The position numbers and the translations under genes are program-made. From Candidatus Acididesulfobacter guangdongensis (GTDB lineage: Bacteria; SZUA-79; Acidulodesulfobacterales; Acidulodesulfobacteraceae): a stretch of 64,000 nt of DNA. The notes under the pieces are model-generated. The model worked only from the letters and a program-made list of their open reading frames with translations. It did no database searches and had not been told where the DNA came from. Below, piece by piece: positions 23,615-42,872 of this stretch (the first letter of the stretch is position 1; the number at the start of each line of letters is the position of its first letter). The DNA lies in NCBI GenBank assembly GCA_004195045.1, contig SGBC01000003.1, positions 434,001 to 498,000 on the forward strand, written 5' to 3'.

Positions 23615-24427
23615 TTATTCCTCCTCTTGCGCAGTTTCTGCAGAGACACTTAAAATTTCACGTGCTATATGCAGATAATCCATAGAACCGCGCGATTTTG
23701 CTTCATAGTAAGTTAAAGGCTTTTTGACAAAACTCGCGTCTTTAAATTTTGTATCAACATTTATGTAGCTGTCGAAACTATTTTCTTTATAATTGCTTTT
23801 AAAGTAATTTAATGACTTGGCTGACGAATTTGTTCTTTTGTCAAACATAGTTATTAAAAGTTTATAATAGCACTTGACATTAAGCGCCTGCTCCACCTTT
23901 TGTATAGTTTTTATAAGCAGCTCAACCCCTCTTACAGACAGATAGTCAGCTTCAACCGGTATTATTATGCCGTCGCACGCTGCTATAGCGCTTATTAAAA
24001 GTACGCTTAGCGCCGGTGACGAATCTATTATAACATAATCGTAATAATCCGGCAAATACTTTAATTTTTCTTTTAACTGCAGTCCTCCGCCGTTAGAAGC
24101 GGAAAGATTAGATTCTATTTTTGCAAGATTAATATTAGAAGGTATAATATCAATACATCCGCCATCCTTAATCTTATATTTTTTTATAATAAACCGTTCA
24201 ATATCGGAAGAGTCTGAAACCAGCAAACTGCCTATAGAATTTTCAACCATTTCCGGTTCAATTGCCAGGTGTGCCGTCAAACTTGCCTGAGGGTCAAGGT
24301 CTATGAGTAAAACATTTTGTCCTAAAACAGATAAGGAACTGGCAAGAGTTAAAGCCGTGGTAGTTTTACCTACCCCTCCTTTCTGATTTGCAACTGCGTA
24401 AATAAACGGTCTTTTTTGACAAATCAT
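23615..24427 (-). CDS. parC: ParC-like ParA/MinD-family ATPase in the chemotaxis operon
   Basis: A 270-residue ParA-family ATPase. The deviant Walker A KGGVGKTTT spans residues 16-24 with signature Lys16 and Lys21; Walker A' is LLIDLDPQAS with Asp45; Walker B is DYVIIDSSPALS near 130. There is no N-terminal DNA-binding extension, unlike plasmid ParA. It sits between cheW and the CheW-domain gene inside the che cluster, with no parB nearby, which matches ParC rather than chromosomal partition. It should recruit chemotaxis arrays to the cell pole together with the downstream protein. Confidence 0.82.
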   Translation of the reverse strand: MICQKRPFIYAVANQKGGVGKTTTALTLASSLSVLGQNVLLIDLDPQASLTAHLAIEPEMVENSIGSLLVSDSSDIERFIIKKYKIKDGGCIDIIPSNINLAKIESNLSASNGGGLQLKEKLKYLPDYYDYVIIDSSPALSVLLISAIAACDGIIIPVEADYLSVRGVELLIKTIQKVEQALNVKCYYKLLITMFDKRTNSSAKSLNYFKSNYKENSFDSYINVDTKFKDASFVKKPLTYYEAKSRGSMDYLHIAREILSVSAETAQEEE

Positions 24428-24594: not shown

Positions 24595-25110
24595 TTATTT
24601 AACAGCCGACTCGATTAAATTGTGTTCACCGGCGGTAAAAATTTTATCTATATCAAGAAGTATAATTAATCTGTCGTCAAGTTTGCCTACGCCTTTTATA
24701 TAATCGGAATCCAGACTCGCAACAAGCGGAGGAGGCGGCTGGATAGTATTTGAATTTATACGCAAAACCTCGGACACGCTGTCAACTATCAGACCTATTG
24801 TTTTACCCAATATATTTACGACGATAATCCTTGTGTCTTTTGTTGATTCTTTTAAATTTAAGTGAAATTTTTTCCTTATATCTACTATCGGAATAACTTT
24901 ACCTCTAAGATTTATAACTCCTTCAACAAAATTTGGCGCTTTAGGAACTTTGGTAATTTCCACCATCCTGTTAATTTCCTGAACCTTTAATATATCAAGC
25001 GCAAATTCCTCACTGCCCAAAGTAAATGTGACCAATTGCATTATCGCATCCACGCCCGTATTTTCATCGGCTTTCTTACTGTCGGGCATCTTAACCGTTT
25101 CTTGCTCCAT
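24595..25110 (-). CDS. cheW: CheW, chemotaxis coupling protein
   Basis: A 171-residue protein with one CheW domain (about 25-160): LVTFTLGSEEFALDILKVQEI, FVEGVINLRGKVIPIVDIRKKF, and DRLIILLDIDKIF. It links chemoreceptors to CheA. An AGGAGG-like sequence lies before the ATG. It follows cheB and precedes the parC-like gene. A REP-like pair lies just upstream, between cheB and cheW. Confidence 0.95.
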   Translation of the reverse strand: MEQETVKMPDSKKADENTGVDAIMQLVTFTLGSEEFALDILKVQEINRMVEITKVPKAPNFVEGVINLRGKVIPIVDIRKKFHLNLKESTKDTRIIVVNILGKTIGLIVDSVSEVLRINSNTIQPPPPLVASLDSDYIKGVGKLDDRLIILLDIDKIFTAGEHNLIESAVK

Positions 25111-25229: not shown

Positions 25230-26393
25230 CTATTTACTTTCTCTTATAATCTCTTCGGCTATTTTATATATCGGAAGGACTTTATCTACAACACCGGCAT
25301 CCACTACCGCTTTAGGCATACCGTAAACTACGCACGTCGCTTCATCCTGAGCGATTGTGCTTCCTCCGTATTTTTTTATAGCCGACATCCCGTCTAATCC
25401 GTCGGACCCCATACCGGTAAGCATTACCGCAATAGATTTTTCGTGATATTCCTCAGCGACAGATTTCATCATTACGGTAACGGAAGGTCTATTGATAAGG
25501 TCTTTAGGTTCTTCGGAAATAAATATCCTGACACCGTCTTTCCCGTCTCTTCTGATACTCATATGCTTATCGCCCGGCGCAAGATATGCCACACCCGGCT
25601 TAATAATTTCGCCTCCCTCGGCTTCTACTACTTTTATATGAGAAATACCGGAGAGTCTCTGAGCAAACGGACCGGTAAACGCCTTAGGCATATGCTGAAC
25701 CAGCAGCAGCGGAAACGGAAAATCCGCTGGAAGCAGCGGTATAACCTCCTGTAAAGCCTTAGGTCCGCCTGTGGAAGAACCGATGGCTACTATTTCTTTT
25801 TTGGCATACAATCCGATATTCGGTTTAATATTACTATTACTATTACTATTGCTATTGCCATTATTATTGCTGCCGTTATATAGTGTTTTGGCTGTAATAT
25901 CTTCGCCGTACTTTGTTTTATTATTATCCGATTTAAATAAAATATTATCGTGATTTTCAAATGACGGCTTTACCTTATAGATAACCTTATTAGCCGTAAC
26001 AGCTCTGATTTTTGAAATCAAATCATCCTTGACCTTTAAAATATTTAATGAAACATTTGAAAGATTTTTAGGTATATAATCGACCGCTCCGTAATCTAAT
26101 GCGTCAAGAGTTGCTTTAGCCCCTTCTTCGGTAAGTGAACTAAGCATGATAACCGGCAGCGGATTTTTTTTCATTATTATTTTAAGAGCCGTCAAACCGT
26201 CCATTTTAGGCATTTCAATATCCATAGTCACAACATCCGGCTTTAGATCTTCCACCTGCTTAACGGCATCTTCTCCGTCTTTCGCCTGACCGATTACTTT
26301 TATATCATTTTCATCTTCAAGCAAAGAAGATATCGCCCTTCGCATAAATGCGGAATCGTCAACGATAAGAACCCTAATAATTTTTTCAGGCAT
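25230..26393 (-). CDS. cheB: CheB, chemoreceptor glutamate methylesterase
   Basis: A 387-residue response regulator. The receiver (1-120) has Asp58 in DVVTMDIEMPKMDG. The methylesterase (about 198-380) has GSSTGG with Ser207, VQHMP with His234 and GMGSDG near the end for the catalytic Asp. It demethylates receptors for adaptation opposite CheR. The linker (about 145-195) is Asn/Ser-rich with an NSNSNSN tract encoded by a hexanucleotide-like repeat at about 25827-25875. It follows cheA by 43 nt. Confidence 0.95.
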   Translation of the reverse strand: MPEKIIRVLIVDDSAFMRRAISSLLEDENDIKVIGQAKDGEDAVKQVEDLKPDVVTMDIEMPKMDGLTALKIIMKKNPLPVIMLSSLTEEGAKATLDALDYGAVDYIPKNLSNVSLNILKVKDDLISKIRAVTANKVIYKVKPSFENHDNILFKSDNNKTKYGEDITAKTLYNGSNNNGNSNSNSNSNIKPNIGLYAKKEIVAIGSSTGGPKALQEVIPLLPADFPFPLLLVQHMPKAFTGPFAQRLSGISHIKVVEAEGGEIIKPGVAYLAPGDKHMSIRRDGKDGVRIFISEEPKDLINRPSVTVMMKSVAEEYHEKSIAVMLTGMGSDGLDGMSAIKKYGGSTIAQDEATCVVYGMPKAVVDAGVVDKVLPIYKIAEEIIRESK

Positions 26394-26436: not shown

Positions 26437-28836
26437 TTATCTTTTTTGTAAAACATCTATCATTGAAGCAATGTCCATAATAAGAACGACTTTTCCGTCA
26501 CCGGTAATAGTCGCTCCCGATATACCTTTATATCCGAATTGATAGTCGCCTAATGATTTTATAACAACCTCTTCCTGTCCGTAAAGCGTATCAACCACTA
26601 TACCTATTCTTTTTTCTGCAAGGGCTACGACAACCACATAAACTTCTTTGCCTGACAGAGCTTTTTTATCCGCTGCCGGAGAATTCCCTGCTGATTGCAA
26701 AGGTTTATTCTGAGAAGCTCCGACACTGAATTCTTCGCTTAAACGCAATAAAGATAAAACAGATTTTCTTAAATTAATCACTTCATGATTGTCGATAGTT
26801 TGTATTGAAGACTCGGGTATTCTTAACGTTTCTACAACAGAATTTAAAGGAATCGCAAATACTTCATCTTCTACTCCGATTATCAGCGTTTGAATTATCG
26901 CAACGGTTAAAGGAAGTTTCAGAATTATATCGGAGCCCTTGCCTTTTTCTGATTCTATGTCTATTATGCCGTTTAGTTTTTGAATATTAGTTTTGACGAC
27001 ATCCATGCCGACTCCTCTGCCTGAGATTTCAGTTACTTTGTCTTTCGTGCTGAAACCGGGGGCAAAAATAAGACTCAACGCATCTTTATCTGAAATAGAC
27101 GCGGCTGTTTTATCGTCAATCAGTCCCTTTTCGACTGCTTTTTTTCTTAAAATATCCGGGTCCATTCCCTTGCCGTCGTCCGATACTTCTATAATAATAT
27201 AATTTCCTTCATGTTCGGCAGACAGATTGATAGTTCCGGCTTTAGATTTCCCTGCTTTTATTCTATCTTCAGGCATCTCTATGCCATGGTCTATGCTGTT
27301 TCTTATAAGATGCACAAGCGGGTCTCCAATTTCTTCAATCACAGATTTGTCTAATTCCGTCTCTTCTCCTGCAATGTTTAATTCTATCTCTTTGCCAAGT
27401 TCTTTAGATAAATCTCTTACCATTCTAGGAAATTTACTGAATACTTTTTTAACCGGCTGCATTCTTGTTTTCATAACGGCGAGCTGCAGGTCCGTAGTTA
27501 TGAGATTTAAATTTGAAACAACCTCTATAAGAGTATCGGTAAATTCATCCTCAGGATATTTAAGTTCCAATTTAGAAGCAATATTAAATATTCTATTTCT
27601 GGATAGGACTAATTCGCCGACCAAGTTCATTACATTATCCAACCTTTCGACATCAACCCTTATCGTAGTTTCAACAGGCGCCGTAACGGCTGGATGTATC
27701 TGCTGCATCTGGGGCTGCGGTTGAACTGACGCCAATACCGGTTTTTTAATTTCAGATGAAACAGGTGTCTGCGGCGGTTCTTTCTTTAAAGTTTGCTTCT
27801 CTGCTTCGGCAATCTTTACCGTTTTATTTAAATTTTCCGTCTTATTATTATTAATAATTTTATTTGCATCATTGGAATTATTAATAATGTTTAAGCGGTC
27901 TGCCCCGTCAATTTCGTCCTTCTTGTTTACCGCGTCTGATTTGTCTGTTTCTTTAATATTTATATTTTTATCGGTTATATCGGCAGAAACATCGGCATTA
28001 TTTGATTTTACGCCATCATGTTCCTGCTCTTCGTCTTTTTCTTGTTCTTGTTCTTTTTTTTCTTCTTCTTCTTTTTCTTTTAATATTTGAGATAATTCAT
28101 CCGGAGACATCAGATTATCTTCTAATAAAATATCCCCTAAATTTCTGACTTTCCGTTTTGGATGATGTTTTTCGCTGCCGGTATTGCTGCCGCCTGCAGG
28201 AATAGATGATTCTTCTATATTTTTTTTATTGTTATTCTTGCTATTATCATTATCACTAATCTTGCTATTATTATCATTAACATTAACATTAGCTTCAGTA
28301 TTGGCAATGTTGTTATCTATATTCTTATTATTTTCGGAAGATTCAGCTTCCTGCGGACTTATATTATTATTCGCCGTTCCAAAATTACCTTCTGGGGGTT
28401 TTATCTCTTCAGTCCTCTGTTCAGCCGCCGTTTCTTCAGTTCGTTCGTCCGCCGCAAGCTGATTGAGTTTATGAATAATCTCTTCATTGTCAAAATTCCC
28501 TTCTTCGCCGGAGTCATTAATGTTTCTGATCATAGCCGTCAAAATATCCATAGTTTTAAGCAGATAATCCATCATATCCGACGTCAGTTTAATTTCGCCC
28601 TGTCTTAATCTGTTTAAAATATTTTCGGCGCTGTGCGCGAGTTCAACGAGATTCTGAAAGCCTAAGAATCCGGCTGAGCCTTTAATTGTGTGAGCAGCTC
28701 TGAAAATAGTATTTAAAAGCTCTTTATCATCTGGATTTTTTTCCAGTTCAATAAAATTTTCGCTTAAAGAATCAAGTAATTCTAACGCTTCTTGAACGAA
28801 ATCGTTAATAATTTCTTTCATTGAATCGTCAATCAT
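26437..28836 (-). CDS. cheA: CheA, chemotaxis histidine kinase
   Basis: A 799-residue kinase from the chosen start. Domains are: Hpt (1-110) with His49 in FRAAHTIKG; a long low-complexity acidic linker (about 125-390); dimerisation helices; an HATPase with the N-box HLIRNSIDHGIE and G-boxes; and a C-terminal CheW-like domain. A recognisable P2 CheY-binding domain is not seen. The linker holds one short motif (LGDILLEDNLMSPDELSQIL) resembling repeats in other deltaproteobacterial CheA linkers. The ORF can be extended four codons to a TTG at 28848, but the ATG at 28836 has GAGG at good spacing and is preferred. Confidence 0.94.
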   Translation of the reverse strand: MIDDSMKEIINDFVQEALELLDSLSENFIELEKNPDDKELLNTIFRAAHTIKGSAGFLGFQNLVELAHSAENILNRLRQGEIKLTSDMMDYLLKTMDILTAMIRNINDSGEEGNFDNEEIIHKLNQLAADERTEETAAEQRTEEIKPPEGNFGTANNNISPQEAESSENNKNIDNNIANTEANVNVNDNNSKISDNDNSKNNNKKNIEESSIPAGGSNTGSEKHHPKRKVRNLGDILLEDNLMSPDELSQILKEKEEEEKKEQEQEKDEEQEHDGVKSNNADVSADITDKNINIKETDKSDAVNKKDEIDGADRLNIINNSNDANKIINNNKTENLNKTVKIAEAEKQTLKKEPPQTPVSSEIKKPVLASVQPQPQMQQIHPAVTAPVETTIRVDVERLDNVMNLVGELVLSRNRIFNIASKLELKYPEDEFTDTLIEVVSNLNLITTDLQLAVMKTRMQPVKKVFSKFPRMVRDLSKELGKEIELNIAGEETELDKSVIEEIGDPLVHLIRNSIDHGIEMPEDRIKAGKSKAGTINLSAEHEGNYIIIEVSDDGKGMDPDILRKKAVEKGLIDDKTAASISDKDALSLIFAPGFSTKDKVTEISGRGVGMDVVKTNIQKLNGIIDIESEKGKGSDIILKLPLTVAIIQTLIIGVEDEVFAIPLNSVVETLRIPESSIQTIDNHEVINLRKSVLSLLRLSEEFSVGASQNKPLQSAGNSPAADKKALSGKEVYVVVVALAEKRIGIVVDTLYGQEEVVIKSLGDYQFGYKGISGATITGDGKVVLIMDIASMIDVLQKR

Positions 28837-28914
28837 AAATAACCTCAAAAAATTATTGCATTAATTTTATAAATTATAACTATATACTATTATCATTTTA
28901 TGCAATCATAAACC

Positions 28915-28968: not shown

Positions 28969-29352
28969 TTAATCCGGAAATATTTTTTCTATTTTTTCCT
29001 GAAGCACTTCGGCTGTAAACGGCTTGACAATATAATTATTAACGCCTGCTTTAACAGCCTCTACGACATTTTCCTTTTTTGCTTCGGCTGTGACCATTAA
29101 AAACGGAATATCTTTTATGCCATCGGTAGCTCTGACGGCTTTCAGGAGCTCTATGCCGGTCATTTCAGGCATATTCCAATCGGACACGACTAAATCATAG
29201 CTGTTGTCGTTTAATTTTGAAAGCGCCACTTGTCCGTTTTCAGCTTCGTCTATGTCGCTGAATCCTATCTGTTTTAATATATTTTTTATTATCCTTCTCA
29301 TCGTAGAAAAATCATCAACAACAAGAATCTTCATTGATAAATCTAATGCCAT
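28969..29352 (-). CDS. cheY: CheY, chemotaxis response regulator
   Basis: A 127-residue single receiver domain: LVVDDFSTMRRIIKNIL, phosphoacceptor Asp in LVVSDWNMPEMTG, and the VTAEAK and NNYIVKPF motifs. This DWNMP signature is that of motor-binding CheY. CheY-P should bind FliM (see its SQEEVNALL peptide) and switch rotation. The ORF could begin 13 codons upstream, but the ATG at 29352 has AAGGAG nine bases before it and fits the family length. Confidence 0.95.
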   Translation of the reverse strand: MALDLSMKILVVDDFSTMRRIIKNILKQIGFSDIDEAENGQVALSKLNDNSYDLVVSDWNMPEMTGIELLKAVRATDGIKDIPFLMVTAEAKKENVVEAVKAGVNNYIVKPFTAEVLQEKIEKIFPD

Positions 29353-29391
29353 AAGTTTTAGCTCCTTAAAATTTTTTACAATTTTAAACAA

Positions 29392-29554: not shown

Positions 29555-29953
29555 TCAATCAATATTTAATGCTTTTTTAGAAATTTTTAATAATTCCGAT
29601 TCCTTAAACGGTTTTTGCAGAAACGCAAAACAGTTTTTAATCTCGTCTTCTCCGGGTTTCATTGAAGACATAAGTATTACCGGAATATTTTTAGTATCTT
29701 CATTTTCTTTTAAATTTTTTAAAAGCGTAATGCCGTCCATCTGAGGCATATTGAGGTCGGTAATAATAAGGTCTATATCATTTTGAATAGCTATTTCTAA
29801 AGCTTCAAATCCGTCTCCTGCCGTCAGCACCTTAAAACCTTTTCCGACAAAAGACAGAGACAGCAGCTTAACGACAACGATTGAATCTTCAACTATCAGA
29901 ATAGTCTTAGTATTTGCGCTTTTATCAACATTTCTGCCGCTCTTATTTTCCAT
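29555..29953 (-). CDS. CheY-like single-domain response regulator
   Basis: A 132-residue receiver: ILIVEDSIVVVKLLSLSF, Asp in LIITDLNMPQMDG, LMSSMK and FLQKPF. All key receiver residues are present. It differs from the CheY at 28969-29352 and lacks its motor-type DWNMP signature, so it may be a phosphate sink or a partner for another target. It lies between cheR and cheY in the che operon. Confidence 0.85.
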   Translation of the reverse strand: MENKSGRNVDKSANTKTILIVEDSIVVVKLLSLSFVGKGFKVLTAGDGFEALEIAIQNDIDLIITDLNMPQMDGITLLKNLKENEDTKNIPVILMSSMKPGEDEIKNCFAFLQKPFKESELLKISKKALNID

Positions 29954-30007: not shown

Positions 30008-30871
30008 TTATTCTTTTACGTAAAGAGGCGTTTTTCCGAAACCTACCAATTTAAATGAACTTGAAATAAAATGCAAAGATTCAGAGTGCCCTAAAAATAA
30101 ATAGCCGTTCTTTTTTAAAGAATCGTACAAGTTTGATATAACAACTTTTTTTGAATCATTATTAAAATATATTATTACATTTCTGCAGAATATTATATCA
30201 AAATTCCCTATCTTTTTAATAGAATCAAAATTTATCAGATTAATATTATAAAAACTTACCATATTTTTAATATTATTTCTAACCTGAAATTGTTCATTGT
30301 CTACTTTGTCAAAATATTTTTCTATCAGTCTCGGTTCGGTATTTCTCAGCGTGTAGCTGCCGTATATTCCTTTTCTTGCGGAAGATAACGCATTTTCGCT
30401 GATATCGGAACCTATAATTTCAAAACTGAATCCTGCAGGAATTTCATTTAAATGCTCCATAATTATAATTGCAAGAGTAAAAGGTTCTTCTCCTGTTGAA
30501 CATCCGGCGCTCCATATTCTTATTTTTTTTGAATAATTTACAGGCGATTCTTTAATTTGTTTAAGTATTTCTTTTAAAACATCGTCTTCAAAGACTTTTA
30601 ACTGAGGAACGTCCCTGAAAAAACTTGTTTCATTTGTCGTAATACTATTAAACAATTCCTTTATTTCATCGGATTGTTTAGCGGAATATTTAAGAAGATA
30701 AAAATAATCCTCATAATTTGCCAAATTGAGGTCTGATAATCTTTTAGACAGTCTTGTCTCTATCAGGTATTTTTTCTGCTCACTGTAAAATATTCCGGTG
30801 AGCTGATATATAAGGTCTCTGATTTTACAAAATGTTTCATCGTTTAAATTTATATTTGAAGTATTCTGCAT
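30008..30871 (-). CDS. cheR: CheR, chemoreceptor glutamate methyltransferase
   Basis: A 287-residue methyltransferase. Motifs are the helical N-domain (1-75), TTNETSFFRDVPQ near 78, the SAM-binding IRIWSAGCSTGEEPFTLAI near 122, IIGSDISENALSSARKGIY and FDIIFCRNVIIYF. It methylates receptors for adaptation, using S-adenosylmethionine. It sits just downstream of the HEAT-repeat gene (24 nt gap) and upstream of the receiver gene. Confidence 0.95.
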   Translation of the reverse strand: MQNTSNINLNDETFCKIRDLIYQLTGIFYSEQKKYLIETRLSKRLSDLNLANYEDYFYLLKYSAKQSDEIKELFNSITTNETSFFRDVPQLKVFEDDVLKEILKQIKESPVNYSKKIRIWSAGCSTGEEPFTLAIIIMEHLNEIPAGFSFEIIGSDISENALSSARKGIYGSYTLRNTEPRLIEKYFDKVDNEQFQVRNNIKNMVSFYNINLINFDSIKKIGNFDIIFCRNVIIYFNNDSKKVVISNLYDSLKKNGYLFLGHSESLHFISSSFKLVGFGKTPLYVKE

Positions 30872-30895: not shown

Positions 30896-33115
30896 TTACT
30901 TTTTAATTTTAAGCAGCTCTTCCGCTATATTTCTTAAATCTTCGTTGGTGTCGCTCAAATAGTTTTTTATAACCGCTCTTGCCCTTGTTTCATCAATGGA
31001 ATATAAAGACCTTAGAATGCTTATTTTTATCAATATCTCATCAGAACTCCGCAAAATTTCAAGTAATTTATTAAAATTATTATGAATCCCGCCGGCATTA
31101 TCAGCGTCTTTATTATAAGTATTTTTATTATAGATAGTTGTATTATGGTTATCTAGATTGTCAGCGTTTGTATTGTCAGAATCATGATTATCAGAATCAC
31201 GTAATTTGCCGATAAGCTCAATAACTTTAAATCTGAACATGACTGAGCGGTTTTTAGTTAATATAGTTTCAAAAAATACGGCTGAATCCTTAAATCCTAA
31301 TTTTATGAGCGATTCTAAAGAATTATATAATACTTCTTCGTTATCGCTTTCTTTGAGCAGTTCAAATAAAATTTCTAAAAACTCTTCCTTCAAATATTTA
31401 TATTCCGCGCGATTTATATTTGAAAAATTGCTTATAACGGATGCAAGCAGCGCTTTAACATTTTCCGATTCTGATTTGGAATCTGCCAGTATTTTAAATA
31501 TGTTATACACATCTATAATATCTTTTTTATTTAGATGTTTATTAAGCGATATTTTAAATTCTTTAATGATGCGCAGCGATATTTCTTTAATCCTGGTATC
31601 ATTTGAATGAAGACTGTTTATAAAAAACTTAAAATAAATTTTGTTATTATTTGTTAAAATAATAATATTTTTGATATAATTATCTAAGACATCGGGATAA
31701 TTTTCGCTTATTGTTTTGTTATAAATATATTTGGCAAAATTAATTTTTTTTGACTTTCCTATTAAATCGGCTGCTGCTTTTCTTATATCTCCATTGCTGT
31801 CGTTCAGTAAAAATAAAGCATTTTTTAATACAGATTTTGAAAGTTTTGGGGCGCCGTAATTAATTATAGACGCTGATGCGGCAAGCAGAGCAATATTTAA
31901 TTCAACAAAAACTTTTCTGTCTTTAAAATAATTTAAAAGTACGGCAATTTCATTAAAATACCTATTTTCAGACAATATTTCAATTAAAATAGAATAAGAA
32001 TTAAAGAAACTTCCCGAGTATGCCATTTTTGTTTCAAATGATGCGCTCATATATTCTAAATATTTTTTTATATAAAATGGATAAGCGACTTTTACAAGAG
32101 AATCCTTTATATATTTATATTCAGCATTATCGGGAGTTATTAAATTTTTATTCAGATAAATCATAAGAAAATTAAAAATTTTAATAGATTTCTTTACATT
32201 TGATAAAGAAAAATAGAATAAAATTGCCTCTCTTATTAATTTATCCTCATAAAATTCTAATTTTAAAATATTTATTTTTATATTAATATTCTGTATTTTT
32301 TTTATTACGGCATTTTTATATTTCGTATTTTTATAATTTTCAATGTATATCCTGTAAATATTTTTAATCAGATAAATTTTATCAATTCTTTTGCATTTAT
32401 TATCCAAACCCGCAATATCAGTCAAAAAATTGAGCCCTGCCCTGCCGTCTATTTTAGCTATAGCATCGATTATTAATTTTCTTACGACATCATCTCTGTT
32501 TTTCCAGAATTCATATTTAAGGTCGGCTATAGTAGATTCTATTTTTAATTCACCAAGGGAAAATATCGCCGATGCTTTAACTAAAAATGAATCGTTTAAT
32601 AACATTTTTTTTAGCGTTTGAACGAGTTTCAGTTTTAAAAAACCGATAGATTCGGCGGCATTTGCCCTGACAATTTCATCTTCGTCTGCGCAAAATTTTC
32701 TCAAACAGGCGGAAGGGGCGCCATGCGGGGTAAAACTGCCGAATCTTAACAATTCCGACACAAATCTCCTATACTGCAGATCTGTATCGGCGCAATAATT
32801 TATTAAAAAATTCCCGTTTCTCTTTGCTTTATTTTTAAGAATATCAAAGGCAGCGGAACGCATTTTTACGTTATAATTTCCCGTAACAATTTTAAATAAA
32901 ATGTTATTCAGTAAATGATTAGAACTTTCGGACAGGGCATTCGACAGCATCTCTGCGGCGGCATTATTGCCGGTGTCTAATAATCCGATCAATCGGTTTA
33001 ATTCTTCCTCGTTATCGCTCTGAAGTATGCCGTTAATTTCTGAAATCAGCCTAAGCTTATTTCCAGAGGATATTTTATTAAATTCTTCTTCGATGTTATA
33101 ATTATTGGTTTGCAT
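30896..33115 (-). CDS. Large HEAT-repeat protein in the fliA-che operon
   Basis: A 739-residue helical-repeat protein. Repeats of HEAT/PBS-lyase style are clear at about 85-230 (for example DEIVRANAAESIGFLKLK, DSFLVKASAIFSLGELKIE, RDDVVRKLIIDAIAKIDG) and again near 410-440 and 560-735. No signal peptide or membrane segment is seen. It overlaps the end of fliA by 14 nt and precedes cheR, so its expression is tied to both. HEAT proteins are protein-binding scaffolds; the partner here is unknown but is likely a chemotaxis or motor component. Confidence 0.8.
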   Translation of the reverse strand: MQTNNYNIEEEFNKISSGNKLRLISEINGILQSDNEEELNRLIGLLDTGNNAAAEMLSNALSESSNHLLNNILFKIVTGNYNVKMRSAAFDILKNKAKRNGNFLINYCADTDLQYRRFVSELLRFGSFTPHGAPSACLRKFCADEDEIVRANAAESIGFLKLKLVQTLKKMLLNDSFLVKASAIFSLGELKIESTIADLKYEFWKNRDDVVRKLIIDAIAKIDGRAGLNFLTDIAGLDNKCKRIDKIYLIKNIYRIYIENYKNTKYKNAVIKKIQNINIKINILKLEFYEDKLIREAILFYFSLSNVKKSIKIFNFLMIYLNKNLITPDNAEYKYIKDSLVKVAYPFYIKKYLEYMSASFETKMAYSGSFFNSYSILIEILSENRYFNEIAVLLNYFKDRKVFVELNIALLAASASIINYGAPKLSKSVLKNALFLLNDSNGDIRKAAADLIGKSKKINFAKYIYNKTISENYPDVLDNYIKNIIILTNNNKIYFKFFINSLHSNDTRIKEISLRIIKEFKISLNKHLNKKDIIDVYNIFKILADSKSESENVKALLASVISNFSNINRAEYKYLKEEFLEILFELLKESDNEEVLYNSLESLIKLGFKDSAVFFETILTKNRSVMFRFKVIELIGKLRDSDNHDSDNTNADNLDNHNTTIYNKNTYNKDADNAGGIHNNFNKLLEILRSSDEILIKISILRSLYSIDETRARAVIKNYLSDTNEDLRNIAEELLKIKK

Positions 33116-33818
33116 ATGAATTTAATCGCGCTTTTAATTTTAATATTGCCTTTGAATGAATCTGACAGATTCTCGATTCCGTTAAATTTAGAATCTTGCC
33201 GATATTTTTTAAAGTAAGCTCTTCATAATAATACATCATTAATACATTCTTTTCAATATCATCTAGCGTGTCAATGCATTTCTTTAATATTTCACCTTTT
33301 TCGCTGTCGATTAAACCATCTACCGCCGAAGGTTCTGCGCTTTCTACCGTTTCCAAAGTTTCAACGGACGTTTTTGGCATTCCTGCAAAATCCATATCTG
33401 AAATAAAAGACGCTCCTCTTATTTTATAAAGCATGTCATTCAATTCATCCGAACTTATGCCTAATTCTTCTGCCGTTTCGGCGTCATCCGGCATTCTGCC
33501 TAATTTTTGTTCCAGATGCATATAGGTTTTTTCAAGTTTATTTGACGCTTCCCGCGCGTTCCTTGTCAGGTAGTCCAATTTTCTTATTTCATCAAGGATT
33601 GAACCTTTAATCCTTGTTATGGCATATTTTTTAAAATTATCATTTTTAGACGGGTCGTATTTCACGGCTGCGTCAATAAGCCCTGCAATGCCGAATTCGA
33701 CAAGGTCATCTCTGTCAACAATCCCGTGGTATTTAAGCGTCATAAAATTGACAACGCTATTAATTAATTTAAAATTATCTTCTATTAGCTTTTTTGACTT
33801 TGCGTCTAATTGATTCAT
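33102..33818 (-). CDS. fliA: FliA, sigma-28 factor for late flagellar genes
   Basis: A 238-residue sigma factor with regions 2 (DDLVEFGIAGLIDAAVKYDPSKN, then KYAITRIKGSILDEIRKLDY), 3 (EQKLGRMPDDAETAEELGIS) and 4 (EELTLKNIGKILNLTESRICQIHSKAILKL). This is the FliA/WhiG type. Its activity is controlled by FlgM (13918-14208). It lies between flhG and the HEAT-repeat gene, the usual place of fliA after flhG in polar flagellates. Confidence 0.95.
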   Translation of the reverse strand: MNQLDAKSKKLIEDNFKLINSVVNFMTLKYHGIVDRDDLVEFGIAGLIDAAVKYDPSKNDNFKKYAITRIKGSILDEIRKLDYLTRNAREASNKLEKTYMHLEQKLGRMPDDAETAEELGISSDELNDMLYKIRGASFISDMDFAGMPKTSVETLETVESAEPSAVDGLIDSEKGEILKKCIDTLDDIEKNVLMMYYYEELTLKNIGKILNLTESRICQIHSKAILKLKARLNSYANQ

Positions 33819-33920: not shown

Positions 33921-34745
33921 CTAATTCTTTCTAAAAAGATTATTGAAAAAGAATTGTAAATTTCCGCTTGAATATTCGTTCTCATCCTGCGATATTATAT
34001 CATAAGCCAATTTTTTAAAACACGCTGCAGATTTTGATTCAGGATAAAGCTCCATTGCCGTTTTTTGCATAATAACGGATTTGGAAACATTCTCGTCATA
34101 CAATATAAATCCTCCATAACTCAGGGAAACTTTGAGAAATTTATCGGCAACGATACCAAGATGCTTATATATGCCTTTTGCTTCCTTTTCGTTTTTTGCC
34201 ATATTTAAAATAATAGAGAAATTTTTCTGTCCGTGCTTTGTGCTCATTACTTTTATAAGCGCATATGCATCGGTTATAGATGTCGGTTCAGGGGTTACTA
34301 TAACCATTATCTCGCCTGCTGCAAGGTTAAAATAAATTACATTCGACGATATACCCGCTCCCGTATCTATGAGCAGAATGTCTATGTCGGAGAGAAAATC
34401 GCCGAATCTGGACATTAAAGTCATTTTTTGTGTTTCCGTAAGATTTGACAACTCCGGTATACCGGAAGAAGCCGGCAGAACTAAAATGCCGTTTTTATCT
34501 GAAATGATAATATCCTTCAGCTGCTTATCTCCGTACAGTACGTTGGATATATTATACTTTGGAGCCAGTCCTAAAACAACGGAGACGTTTCCGAGGCTTA
34601 AATCGGCATCCATTATCATTACTTTTTTACCCATAGAAGCAAAACAATAGGCAAGATTGCATACGATATTAGTTTTGCCGACACCGCCTTTTCCGCTTGT
34701 TATTGATATAATTTTAGTTTGATTTGGCTGTTTTCTTTTTCTCAT
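33921..34745 (-). CDS. flhG: FlhG (FleN/YlxH), MinD-like ATPase setting flagellar number
   Basis: A 274-residue MinD-family ATPase with Walker A SGKGGVGKTN (about 17-26), Walker A' MIMDADLSLGNVSVVLGL and a DILLIDTGAGIS motif. The sequence GNVSVVLGL is typical of FlhG. It counters FlhF and, in several species, binds the FleQ-type activator to keep flagellar number low. It lies directly after flhF and before fliA, the canonical order flhA-flhF-flhG-fliA. Confidence 0.92.
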   Translation of the reverse strand: MRKRKQPNQTKIISITSGKGGVGKTNIVCNLAYCFASMGKKVMIMDADLSLGNVSVVLGLAPKYNISNVLYGDKQLKDIIISDKNGILVLPASSGIPELSNLTETQKMTLMSRFGDFLSDIDILLIDTGAGISSNVIYFNLAAGEIMVIVTPEPTSITDAYALIKVMSTKHGQKNFSIILNMAKNEKEAKGIYKHLGIVADKFLKVSLSYGGFILYDENVSKSVIMQKTAMELYPESKSAACFKKLAYDIISQDENEYSSGNLQFFFNNLFRKN

Positions 34746-34848: not shown

Positions 34849-34960
34849 ATTAATTAAATATAATATTTCGTTATCATATTTCGGGCTTGTTAAAGCTAAT
34901 TTAGCATTATCATAGTTAATGGCATTAATTAAATATATTTTGTTATCATATTTCCGGCTT
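34849..34960 (-). repeat. Direct duplication of the flhF 3' end
   Basis: Positions 34924-34960, which include the last codons and stop of flhF, are repeated imperfectly at 34849-34888, about 75 nt away. Both carry TTATCATATTTC.GGCTT. The outer copy has no role in coding and is decaying. Confidence 0.8.
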
Positions 34961-36148
34961 CGGAAAAAATAATCCGTATAGATTATCTAATTTTGCCTCC
35001 TCAATATTTTCAGGAACATTTTCTCCGTTTGTCAAATAATCTATGGTCAGTTCGGACTGAAGAAAAATACCCGCAAGATTGCCTATGCTGTACGATTCGT
35101 CAACTTTTGTTATAATTAAAGAGCTAAGCCCTATCTTATTATTAAAAGATTCATAAATTCTCATCGCATCATGAGATTTAGTCTGGGCAGACAGAAGAAG
35201 CGAATTTTTCATTTTTCCTTTATAAATATCAAAAAATTTAGCTAAATTGTTAAGCTGATAAAGATTATTATGGTTTACGCCGAATGAATCTACAATTATG
35301 ACATCTGAATCTGAATTTGACACGAAAGTTTTAAATTCATCCGTATTTTTTATAGATGCAAATTCTATTTTCAGTTTTTTAGCATAGTTTTTTAGCGCTT
35401 CGTTTCCGTTTATTTTTAAAATATCTAATGAGCAGAGGGAAACGTGTTTATTTTTTTCAAATATATATTTTGCGCATAATTTCGCGGCGGACGATGTCTT
35501 TCCTACACCGTTATTTCCGATTAGCGATACTAAAATTTTGCCGTCCACGGTGGACTGAAGCGCAGTTTTCTTTTCTAATCTGCGCTCAATCAATTTTTTA
35601 AAAAATTTTAAAAAATATTCTATTTTCTCGTTCGGCGTAAAGTTTTTAAGCACGAGTCCCTTGAAAAAAATATCATTTAATTTAACCGATATTCTTCTGT
35701 CAAAACCTAATCTGTCTAAATATGAAAACAGCTCTTCATCTATAATTTTAGAACCTGATTTTTCTTTTTTTAAAAAGTCTATAGAAAATCTGAGTTCGTC
35801 AAGCATAGATTTTACTTCTTCAAATTTTGAATTTAGAACAAAAATAACCTTATCTTCTACGATACTCTCAAAATTATCCTTTAAAAATTTAATATCGTCA
35901 TAAAGCGGAGTTATTAAATCATAATTTATTTTTTTATTGTCTTCTTCTCTATCCCTGCCGTTTACGGAAATTTCTTCATTATAATCGACCGCCGCCACAA
36001 CTTCTAAAAACGGTTTGCCGAAAAAACCGAACTCTTCAGATTTATTTACCTGCCTTGTAGAGATAATAACGGCGTCTTCCCCCAGGTCCCTTTTTATAAG
36101 TTTAATAGCTTCTTTTATATCCAGAACCTCATATCTTTTAATTTGCAT
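34946..36148 (-). CDS. flhF: FlhF, SRP-type GTPase for polar flagellar placement
   Basis: A 400-residue protein with the conserved N-terminus MQIKRYEVLDIKEAIKLIKRDLGEDAVII-like region and a C-terminal SRP-GTPase domain (about 205-395). The P-loop is GNNGVGKTSSAAKL. Other G motifs are diverged: VIIVDSFG in the place of the usual DTAG motif and ITKVDE as the TKxD motif. It marks the pole for the first flagellar components. flhA lies upstream with an 11-nt overlap and flhG downstream. Confidence 0.9.
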   Translation of the reverse strand: MQIKRYEVLDIKEAIKLIKRDLGEDAVIISTRQVNKSEEFGFFGKPFLEVVAAVDYNEEISVNGRDREEDNKKINYDLITPLYDDIKFLKDNFESIVEDKVIFVLNSKFEEVKSMLDELRFSIDFLKKEKSGSKIIDEELFSYLDRLGFDRRISVKLNDIFFKGLVLKNFTPNEKIEYFLKFFKKLIERRLEKKTALQSTVDGKILVSLIGNNGVGKTSSAAKLCAKYIFEKNKHVSLCSLDILKINGNEALKNYAKKLKIEFASIKNTDEFKTFVSNSDSDVIIVDSFGVNHNNLYQLNNLAKFFDIYKGKMKNSLLLSAQTKSHDAMRIYESFNNKIGLSSLIITKVDESYSIGNLAGIFLQSELTIDYLTNGENVPENIEEAKLDNLYGLFFPKPEI

Positions 36149-40546: not shown

Positions 40547-41260
40547 CTATTTAAAACTTTGAACTAAAGAGCCGACAACTAAATACCAGCCGTTGACTAA
40601 TACAAAAAGCATCAATTTGAACGGCAGAGAAATCATTGTAGGCGGAAGCATCATCATACCCATAGACATAAGCAAACTTGAAACAACTAAGTCAATTACT
40701 AAAAACGGCAGATAAATCAGAAAACTTATTTCAAAAGCCGTGGTCAGCTCGCTTATAACAAAAGCTGGCACAAGTACATACATAGGAACATCCTGAGGGG
40801 ATTTTATTTTTTTAAGTTTAGCCATCCGCACAAACAGTCCAAGGTCTTTTGTCCTTGTCTGTCTGAGCATAAATTTTTTCAGCGGTTTTACTCCGCGCGT
40901 ATATGCCTGTTTTATGCCTATTTTTTTATTTGTGTACGGAATATACGCATTATGATATATCTTTCCTATTACCGGAGCCATAACAAAAAAAGTAAGAAAA
41001 AGACTTAAGCCGATTATCACCTGATTAGGCGGCATATTCTGAGTACCCATAGATGTGCTGAGAAACGAAAGAACTACGACTATTCTCACAAACGAGGTCA
41101 TCATAATTAAAATAGACGGAGCGATAGAAACTACCGTAAATATCAGCAGTATCTGAATAAGGGCGGAAACTTCGGAATGATGCGGGTGTTTTGTTATCGC
41201 TATAACAGGCAGAGCGATAAGATTTGCCCCGTTTGATCTAATTTTTCTTAAAATTTCCAT
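40547..41260 (-). CDS. fliP: FliP, export gate membrane protein
   Basis: A 237-residue polytopic protein. Key FliP segments are [22 protein letters not shown] near 48-69, [19 protein letters not shown] and [18 protein letters not shown]. It forms the start of the FliP5-FliQ4-FliR1 core. A GGAG sequence before the ATG supports the start, which lies 23 nt inside the end of fliO. The periplasmic loop (about 105-155) is Lys/Arg-rich. Confidence 0.95.
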
Positions 41261-42872
41261 TATTACTCTCCATTAGTCCCTTTATTTTATTTTCTATATC
41301 AAAAAAAACATTATCGGCTTTATTTTTAATTCTTGCTTCAGAAATATTTCTTATTTTATATTCTGAAGATTCTTCGCCTTTATCATTATCGTTATCATTG
41401 TAATTATCATTTTCATTTTCGTTATTATTGGCATTATTGTTGCTGCCTCTTACATTATTATTGCTATTATTGGAATAAGAATAAGAAGATGGCGCTCCGC
41501 TTTTTTTGTCGGGCGTTCTATTTTCAAATGTCGCCTGACGGTCAAGTTTAGGCTCAAATTGAGATACGTTTAAGTCTTTATTTTGGCTTTTATCTTTTGA
41601 CAATGCGCTTATATGCTGTTTTAAAAAACTGCTGAAACTGTTTCTTGAAGCAGGGGCAGCTTTTTTATTTAAAAATTTACCGGCATTATCTTTACTAACA
41701 TTGACGGCAATATCTCTATTATCCTCATCGCCGCCATTATTGTCATTATCATTATCGCTATCATTATTGCTTAAATCAGATGATTGGCTGCCGGCATTTT
41801 TAGAATAATTGACGCTCTTACGATTTATTATGCCTTTCATCATATCTATATTATTATTCGGCGCAGCAGGGGCATTTTCTCCGGCGTCATTTTCGCTGCT
41901 GCCGATATTATTTTCATCGTCACTTATATGTCCTATTACCTGCATATTTGTAGGCGACACGCCTATTAAAAAAAGCTGATTATTAACCGAAGCCAGTATG
42001 AGCGATTTTTTAAATCCGATATTAACCGAAGAAATAATTCGTATATTATTTTTATTTTTTTTAATATTAGACATTTTGCCTTTAAATTTTGTAAGCAGAT
42101 AATAAATAGCATAAATAAAACCTAATACGAGAAGTAAAGAAAATATAGTTTTAATAATTTCAAACCCAAAATTAAAATTCATTGCAGCCGGCTGTTTATT
42201 TAACATTGTTTTATCAATTTTGTCTGTTTTATTAGTTTTTTCGGCTTGACCGACTTTAGCATACCGTTCAGCTTTTTTATTGAACGGCGCTGTTTTATTC
42301 AGAGCTGGTTTATCTTCTAAAGGTTTTTTTATATTTTTAAAACTGTTTTTCAGCAATGCGAGTTTACTGAGCTGTGGCGTTTTTTTGCCTACATTTTGAA
42401 ATATATTACCGGCAAAACTGCGGTTTATCTTAATAATATAATAATTTCCGTAAAAAGAACTCTCTAATCGTTTCTTGTTTATTTTTATTCCTTTTTTGAA
42501 ATAAACCATAACATCTGCAGAGTGCTTTGCGCCGCGTATTAATTCTATCCCTGAAATCAACGGATTATCAGAATATTTTAAAAATTTAGATTTAAAATGA
42601 AAACCGGAATCCGGAAATTTTAATTTGAAACCGTAATCATATAATTTATAATTAGGATTCAGCTGTTTAGCGGCATTATTAAATTTTAGCCATATAAGAT
42701 ACTTGCCGTTATTATTTTTAGTTACCAAAATTTTCTGCAGCAATGAATTCGGCGGAAATTTTCCCGACGCATAGCATGTTCCAGCAAATATACCCGTAAT
42801 AAAAAATAGCAGCAATAATGCAAATAATATAAATAATGCAGCGGCTGCAGATGAACCAAGAAATTTCCTCAT
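41238..42872 (-). CDS. fliO: FliO with an AMIN-like N-terminal domain and a long disordered tail
   Basis: A 544-residue protein where FliO is usually about 100-250 residues. Parts in order are a signal segment (10-36); a basic beta-rich domain (about 45-155) with the look of an AMIN-type domain; a Lys-rich linker; a membrane helix (about 240-262, [18 protein letters not shown]); the FliO cytoplasmic domain (about 265-315, [20 protein letters not shown] then [17 protein letters not shown]); and a long Asn/Asp/Ser-rich tail. FliO helps FliP assemble in the inner membrane. Position between fliN and fliP fixes the identity. The AMIN-like call is by eye only. Confidence 0.82.

Follow-up and report, generated by a model that had tools for sequence, protein, structure and literature searches.

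A HEAT-repeat protein encoded between fliA and cheR in Candidatus Acididesulfobacter guangdongensis, a proposed partner of one CheR subfamily

What does a large HEAT-repeat protein do when its gene lies between those of a flagellar sigma factor and a chemoreceptor methyltransferase? The question is raised by a 64,000-nucleotide stretch of Candidatus Acididesulfobacter guangdongensis DNA (GTDB family Acidulodesulfobacteraceae; assembly GCA_004195045.1, contig SGBC01000003.1, positions 434,001 to 498,000), the whole of which is called the window here. On its minus strand, a 739-aa open reading frame (ORF) with an ATG start (30896..33115) overlaps by 14 nt (33102..33115) the end of fliA, which encodes sigma-28 (33102..33818, minus strand; NCBIfam FliA_WhiG, 206.5 bits against a cut-off of 189.6); the overlap could allow translational coupling. 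Its stop codon lies 24 nt from the start of cheR (30008..30871, minus strand; Pfam CheR 5.7e-56, 189.5 bits against a cut-off of 27). A preliminary description of this DNA had reported the 739-residue HEAT ORF, the 14-nt overlap and the adjacency to cheR, all of which we confirm, and had proposed a motility-specific scaffold, for example one joining FliA, CheR or the receptor array to another factor. On a narrow balance of probability, we take the protein to be a HEAT-repeat partner of CheR, drawn from a widespread two-gene module with one CheR subfamily, whose solenoid would bind CheR and dock it on, or limit it to, the receptor array. The computed basis is its genetic pairing with cheR, its confinement to a single CheR clade, its disappearance along with che genes, one fusion and the lack of pentapeptide-pocket residues in the linked CheRs. 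The protein probably holds or aims CheR rather than serving the sigma factor.

Pfam recognized HEAT_2 (1.5e-21, 76.9 bits against a cut-off of 27.7) and HEAT (6.6e-11, 41.9 bits against 23.5) in the 739-aa protein; no other family scored above its cut-off and no CheR domain was found. The AlphaFold2 model, computed with 23 family sequences, is an all-helical solenoid of ∼40 helices with no strands listed (mean pLDDT 82.9, pTM 0.63). Foldseek comparison with the PDB gave matches at 9–14% identity to SF3B1, CAND1, karyopherins and the PP2A scaffold subunit, which is what any long HEAT solenoid would be expected to give. Residues 81–160 (32636..32875, minus strand) form the best-conserved block among CheR-linked HEAT proteins, with a mean of 2.1–2.3 bits in a 29-row alignment, where R86 is present in 96% of the letters of its column; a dense run of invariant residues in the family alignment also falls within this block. 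An Asn/Asp-rich insert at residues 641–677 (31085..31195, minus strand) is predicted to be disordered (pLDDT <50) and corresponds to a gap in most relatives' rows. Asn/Asp/Lys-rich low-complexity runs resembling this insert occur in CheA (26437–28848) and in the ORF at 41238–42872, and are seemingly a habit of the genome. The HEAT protein changes faster than its surroundings: its identity in other genera is 36–38%, vs. 47–86% for the flanking genes of the same loci. Assignment as a phycobilin lyase/NblB enzyme was rejected (NCBIfam NblB 50.1 bits, far under the cut-off of 300).

Within the GTDB family, the HEAT protein was present in 23 of the 30 genomes searched (the window's own and 29 relatives). 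Conservation of the fliA-HEAT-cheR order in related genomes, which the preliminary description had put forward as a check, was borne out. The fliA-HEAT overlap is kept in 23/23 loci from 22 other family genomes, with a length, counted from the first-ATG start, of 8 nt in 19 loci, 14 nt in three and 17 nt in one. The cheR gene comes directly after HEAT in all 22 family loci whose contig extends that far, and a response regulator (RR) gene follows cheR in all 21 that reach one gene further. As far as the contigs reach, the order fliA-HEAT-cheR-RR-cheY-cheA-cheB-cheW-parA recurs in the 23 loci. Genome G018 carries two copies of the fliA-HEAT-cheR region (L052 and L053), and G024 has a second CheR at G024:C22:3691-4263, apart from its HEAT-linked copy.

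When 27 family genomes were searched for both genes, 21 had HEAT and CheR, five had neither, and one had HEAT alone (G005, whose contig ends before cheR). A CheR above cut-off without HEAT was found in none of the 27, and the absence or unlinking of the gene in motile relatives, named in the preliminary description as evidence that would tell against it, was thus not encountered. Two relatives, G008 and G010 (99 and 100% complete), retain FliA above cut-off; they have no CheR above cut-off, no CheA, no methyl-accepting chemotaxis protein (MCP) and no HEAT protein, the che genes and HEAT being gone from around fliA. In G008 (L083), the neighbours of fliA are flhG and a shortened 129-aa flhF frame, with no che genes around it; in G010 (L084), no flagellar query gene accompanies fliA in the 20 kb fetched, again with no che genes around. 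A decayed che-flagellar locus was seen in G019 (L085, 8000–12100), where fragments of flhG, fliA and cheY abut; HEAT, cheR and the regulator are missing, cheA and cheB remain, and an MCP search of the genome found none. The joint absence of HEAT and CheR, with fliA kept in G008 and G010, indicates that HEAT goes with CheR and that fliA can persist in the absence of HEAT.

Is the pairing a peculiarity of this family? A contig search with the single HEAT protein as query matched only four close relatives. The family HEAT profile, run against 386 genomes, matched 28 genomes outside the family. We fetched 20 out-of-family match regions, 18 from the profile search and two (G051 and G035) from an earlier search only. 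HEAT lies in a che cluster in eight of these: directly before cheR in G072, G055, G287, G152, G161 and G051, and separated from cheR by one gene, encoding an HDOD protein, in G300 and G165. The other 12 regions gave no cheR match. Gene order in G287 is as in the window (flhB-flhA-flhF-flhG-fliA-HEAT-cheR-RR/cheY-cheA-cheW), and plasmid 2 of Gemmatirosa kalamazoonensis has the order cheY-cheA-cheW-HEAT-cheR-cheB.

The neighbourhood of cheR was also surveyed from the CheR side. Of the same 386 genomes, 224 gave a match in a CheR search, and from each out-of-family genome we took the CheR listed first, following a rule fixed beforehand; the resulting 94 genes are a hand-compiled set, one CheR each, from the best-scoring listed 94 of ∼202 out-of-family CheR-matching genomes. 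Neighbouring ORFs were counted if they lay on the same strand and had at least 80 aa, which left 80/94 upstream and 72/94 downstream; the Pfam counts exclude the others, for which no ORF was found or the ORF was shorter or on the opposite strand. HEAT_2 was the commonest Pfam family directly upstream of cheR (26/80), followed by Response_reg (15), MCPsignal (13), CheW (10) and CheB (6). Directly downstream it was found in 2/72 (upstream vs. downstream, Fisher p 1.2e-6, uncorrected for relatedness). Pfam supplied this count only; the 26 upstream loci were named by in-house hidden Markov models (HMMs), which also gave 26 and were trained partly on the loci scored. The 26 loci span 21 GTDB families, and any HEAT in the fetched stretch was seen in 25 of the 77 sampled families. 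The earlier remark that no usual chemotaxis or flagellar gene occupies this place therefore holds for textbook che operons but not across bacteria, where cheR is commonly preceded by a HEAT gene. A chemotaxis-linked scaffold is well supported, but the restriction to motility is too narrow, since most out-of-family HEAT-cheR loci are che clusters without a flagellar query-gene match inside the ±4 kb fetched. Of the 26 out-of-family survey loci where HEAT immediately precedes cheR, only that of G287 has fliA before HEAT.

To which CheRs does HEAT belong? On a quick maximum-likelihood tree of 96 CheR rows (the 94 of the survey, the window and G009), the HEAT label required 8 changes vs. 24.3 with shuffled labels, and 0/500 shuffles were as low. 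All 28 HEAT-labelled rows fall in one group of 39 CheRs, the branches of which are mostly below the star threshold. The HEAT neighbours that had not been used as labels fall in this clade in five of five cases: HEAT lies downstream of cheR in two of them (G249, G108) and two genes upstream in two others (G165, G300), and it is fused to CheR in G213. A HEAT gene was present in the fetched stretch for 31/37 survey CheRs inside the clade vs. 1/57 outside, a partly circular comparison, since the clade was delimited so as to include all HEAT-labelled rows; the independent tests are the shuffle and the second sample described below. The window CheR is inside the clade and E. coli CheR is outside. 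G051 and G161 have additional CheR copies linked to HEAT, which fall in the clade, and each of these genomes has another CheR outside it without HEAT directly upstream, with one HEAT ORF farther away in the fetched stretch in the case of G161. For the partial CheR of G072, the nearest rows shown are clade members, and its placement carries no star.

For the second sample, 61 genomes belonging to the same class as G287 were searched for CheR, which gave 30 loci, these being the best CheR matches; without G152, which had already been used, 29 remained for scoring. Only first-sample rows served to define the clade, on a FastTree tree, and HEAT was called by profile, not by Pfam. Clade and neighbour agreed in 29/29 loci: the 15 inside the clade all have HEAT upstream and the 14 outside have none, within one class and with loci that are not independent events. 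Membership of the CheR clade thus served as a sequence-only predictor of a HEAT neighbour that was correct for all of the new loci.

The two proteins are joined in one case. In G213, a single open frame of 680 codons (L240:2591-4630) carries three HEAT_2 stretches, CheR_N (403–453) and CheR (471–661). In its AlphaFold2 model, which begins at residue 24 of the frame, a helical half and a CheR half are separated by a low-confidence segment at 365–371 (pLDDT 88.8, pTM 0.66), and both halves fold confidently.

A gene for an HDOD protein was found beside several members of the same CheR branch. HDOD accounts for 5/80 upstream neighbours of cheR by Pfam, and genes of ∼300 aa encoding it stand directly before cheR at L194:2865-3773, L215:4804-5712, L241:2894-3772 and L219:4817-5698 (G165, G300, G124 and G250, respectively). 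The CheRs of all four genomes are in the HEAT-linked clade, and the order is HEAT-HDOD-cheR in G165 and G300. The HDOD protein may be a second partner of the HEAT-linked CheR branch.

We then consider how a CheR of this subfamily could find its receptors. The Salmonella CheR residues reported to bind the receptor pentapeptide are Q182, R187, G188, G190, G194 and R197 (PMC2577667). At least four of these six are kept in 0/30 HEAT-linked CheRs and in 5/57 others, and the window CheR has 0/6. The β-subdomain stretch is short (22–23 residues) in 29/30 HEAT-linked CheRs and in 26/58 others; in E. coli, which is counted among the 58, it has 26 residues. Pfam detected no TPR domain in the window CheR. 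On the receptor side, seven MCP regions were fetched in the window genome and four in G009. Those MCP frames that could be followed to their C-terminus stop at the signalling helix or close to it, without any tail beyond. Two printed frames, L265 and L266, finish in other sequence, and no frame could be read in the third G009 region. Since the readable MCPs carry no tail, the receptors of the window organism appear not to offer the enterobacterial tether. Most bacteria are in the same position. A recognizable CheR-tethering segment was reported for fewer than 10% of the MCPs listed at that time, and other bacteria are described as pentapeptide-independent (PMC2577667). The missing tether is consistent with a HEAT tether and is no proof of one.

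From these comparisons of genes and sequences, we infer physical binding of CheR, receptor docking and an effect on methylation. The HEAT α-solenoid would bind CheR and dock it on the receptor array, or restrict it to the array, and this docking would set the site and strength of receptor methylation in adaptation. The target receptors would be those without a CheR-tethering tail. Acting in trans, the HEAT protein would take the part that for enterobacterial CheR is played by the C-terminal pentapeptide of the receptor and for FrzF, in cis, by its TPR domain. A broader version, which we advance more tentatively, is that HEAT and CheR could form a general recruitment system, so far undescribed, for the whole pentapeptide-independent CheR branch in many families; the solenoid might be a cradle setting site or receptor specificity, mostly in trans and fused to CheR in at least one genome.

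Several results weigh against a role as CheR partner. Five clade CheRs have no HEAT gene in the fetched ±4 kb, and a sixth sits at a contig edge. Pentapeptide independence is common, the short loop being found in 26/58 CheRs outside the clade, and alone it does not point to HEAT. The HEAT-CheR fusion was seen in one genome only, and the mutual placement of its halves is unreliable at this pTM. HMM scores separate CheR-linked from unlinked HEAT proteins poorly: with a profile trained on half of the linked set, held-out linked proteins scored 146–737 bits and unlinked ones 70–442 bits, so that the ranges overlap, with the unlinked G268 protein at 442 bits. A two-motif signature, found in 11/34 linked and 0/12 unlinked HEAT proteins, is specific but insensitive. 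Moreover, two experimentally studied HEAT chemotaxis proteins, Cpc7 and OE2401F, act elsewhere. These two proteins lend substance to the main alternative, which we hold to be rather unlikely, namely that HEAT is the target of the response regulator or CheY encoded after cheR and serves as an output or feedback element, as Cpc7 does with CheY7; the adjacency to cheR would then reflect operon history or regulator feedback to adaptation. Cpc7, the HEAT protein of the Myxococcus xanthus Che7 system, is reported to bind CheY7 (PMC11514114), OE2401F is reported to be needed for motor switching in Halobacterium (PMC2666748), and a response regulator follows cheR in all family loci reaching that far and lies near HEAT in many survey loci. 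However, the constant neighbour of HEAT is cheR, not the regulator. In the eight che-linked loci recovered from HEAT similarity alone, the next gene is cheR in six and a ∼300-aa HDOD gene followed by cheR in two, and is a regulator in none; the sole fusion seen joins HEAT to CheR. The two readings could be compatible if HEAT relays a regulator signal to CheR.

The HEAT protein could instead be a receptor- or array-side adaptor that gives order to the array, or recruits CheR together with CheB, without a strong CheR contact. Many clusters hold cheW, cheB and cheA along with HEAT, and the PP2A scaffold and CAND1, both large solenoids, are among its Foldseek matches, but its presence tracks the CheR clade and not the whole genome, as the out-of-clade CheRs of G051 and G161 illustrate, and we regard such an adaptor as improbable. 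A flagellar scaffold linking FliA to chemotaxis would explain the fliA overlap conserved in 23/23 family loci and the same fliA-HEAT-cheR order in the unrelated G287. That FliA is a joined partner, as the preliminary description had suggested, is nevertheless very improbable, and we have dropped it, since G008 and G010 keep fliA without HEAT and 25 of the 26 survey HEAT-cheR loci have no fliA match alongside. Finally, HEAT proteins are widespread and the window protein is fast-evolving, as might be expected if a generic HEAT gene had been caught by coincidence in a conserved operon. Such a chance neighbour is hardly credible and was rejected in view of the repeated linkage in 25/77 sampled families, the 26/80 upstream HEAT_2 genes and the full agreement in the second sample. 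CheR accordingly remains the partner that we favour for the HEAT protein.

The genes around the HEAT-cheR pair in the window all lie on the minus strand, in the order flhB, flhA, flhF, flhG, fliA, HEAT, cheR, single-domain response regulator, cheY, cheA, cheB, cheW and a parA-like gene; several of the names come from models that score under their curated cut-off. Upstream of fliA, flhF (34946..36148) matches the FlhF model TIGR03499 at 144.4 bits, under the cut-off of 174.15, and the MinD-like flhG (33921..34745), for which MinD-type models score under their cut-offs, is named from its position. The cheR gene itself is assigned to the HEAT-linked subfamily by its tree placement. After it comes the single-domain response regulator (29555..29953; Response_reg 8e-22, and gene order), which is nearest to the DVU0259 family single-domain regulator model (82.8 bits, under the cut-off of 160). 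The cheY gene (28969..29391) reaches 169.5 bits with the NCBIfam CheY model PRK10610, under its cut-off of 189. We identified cheA (26437..28848) by a library scan, with Pfam H-kinase_dim at the same place in the genome, and cheB (25230..26393) by PRK00742 (453.2 bits against a cut-off of 293). The cheW gene (24595..25110) scores 136.7 bits with PRK10612, under the cut-off of 260. The parA-like ATPase gene after cheW (23615..24427) was named as a P-loop ATPase by sequence and from gene order; it also follows cheW in family loci whose contig extends there, and is possibly concerned with polar placement of arrays or flagellum.

If the proposal is true, a dedicated CheR partner in 25 of the 77 sampled GTDB families would offer a testable answer to how CheR finds receptors without a pentapeptide, and would add an auxiliary component that is missing from models of the chemotaxis pathway. 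The open-access literature covered, mostly titles and abstracts, includes studies of the archaeal OE2401F and papers citing Cpc7 but describes no bacterial HEAT-CheR pair; subscription papers (on Cpc7, and a myxobacterial survey) lie outside this coverage and the absence is unproven. The word HEAT does not occur in the accessible parts of a cross-species survey of che operons (PMC2829493) or of a Geobacter survey (PMC2577667).

Among known systems, Cpc7 of the M. xanthus Che7 system is likewise a bacterial HEAT protein in a chemosensory system, but its reported partner is the response regulator CheY7 and its role is in development, not taxis (PMC11514114). OE2401F of Halobacterium salinarum is a HEAT_PBS protein encoded in a che-archaellum region and reported to be essential for chemotaxis and phototaxis; unlike the window protein, it is archaeal, contacts CheD and OE2402F (CheF type), adjoins a DUF439/CheF gene and has its presumed place of action between CheY and the motor (PMC2666748, PMC3579733). 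The pentapeptide tether, the NWETF tail of Tar and Tsr, resembles the proposed HEAT function as a means of bringing CheR to receptors. It sits on the receptor and is reported to bind the CheR β-subdomain (PMC2577667), in contrast to the HEAT-linked CheRs, which lack the pocket residues, and to the readable MCPs of the window genome, which lack the tail. Closest in design are the CheR-TPR fusions FrzF and WspC, in which a helical-repeat module is attached to the CheR methyltransferase (PMC2535941, PMC3447774). There the module is described as a TPR of 1–4 repeats in cis, mostly C-terminal, in pathways of alternative cellular function, whereas the present module is a large HEAT protein encoded separately, with a single (N-terminal) fusion among the surveyed CheRs. 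FrzF reportedly methylates a single site of FrzCD when it has its TPRs and three when they are absent (PMC2535941), and by analogy it is the nearest experimental parallel to the proposed action of HEAT on CheR.

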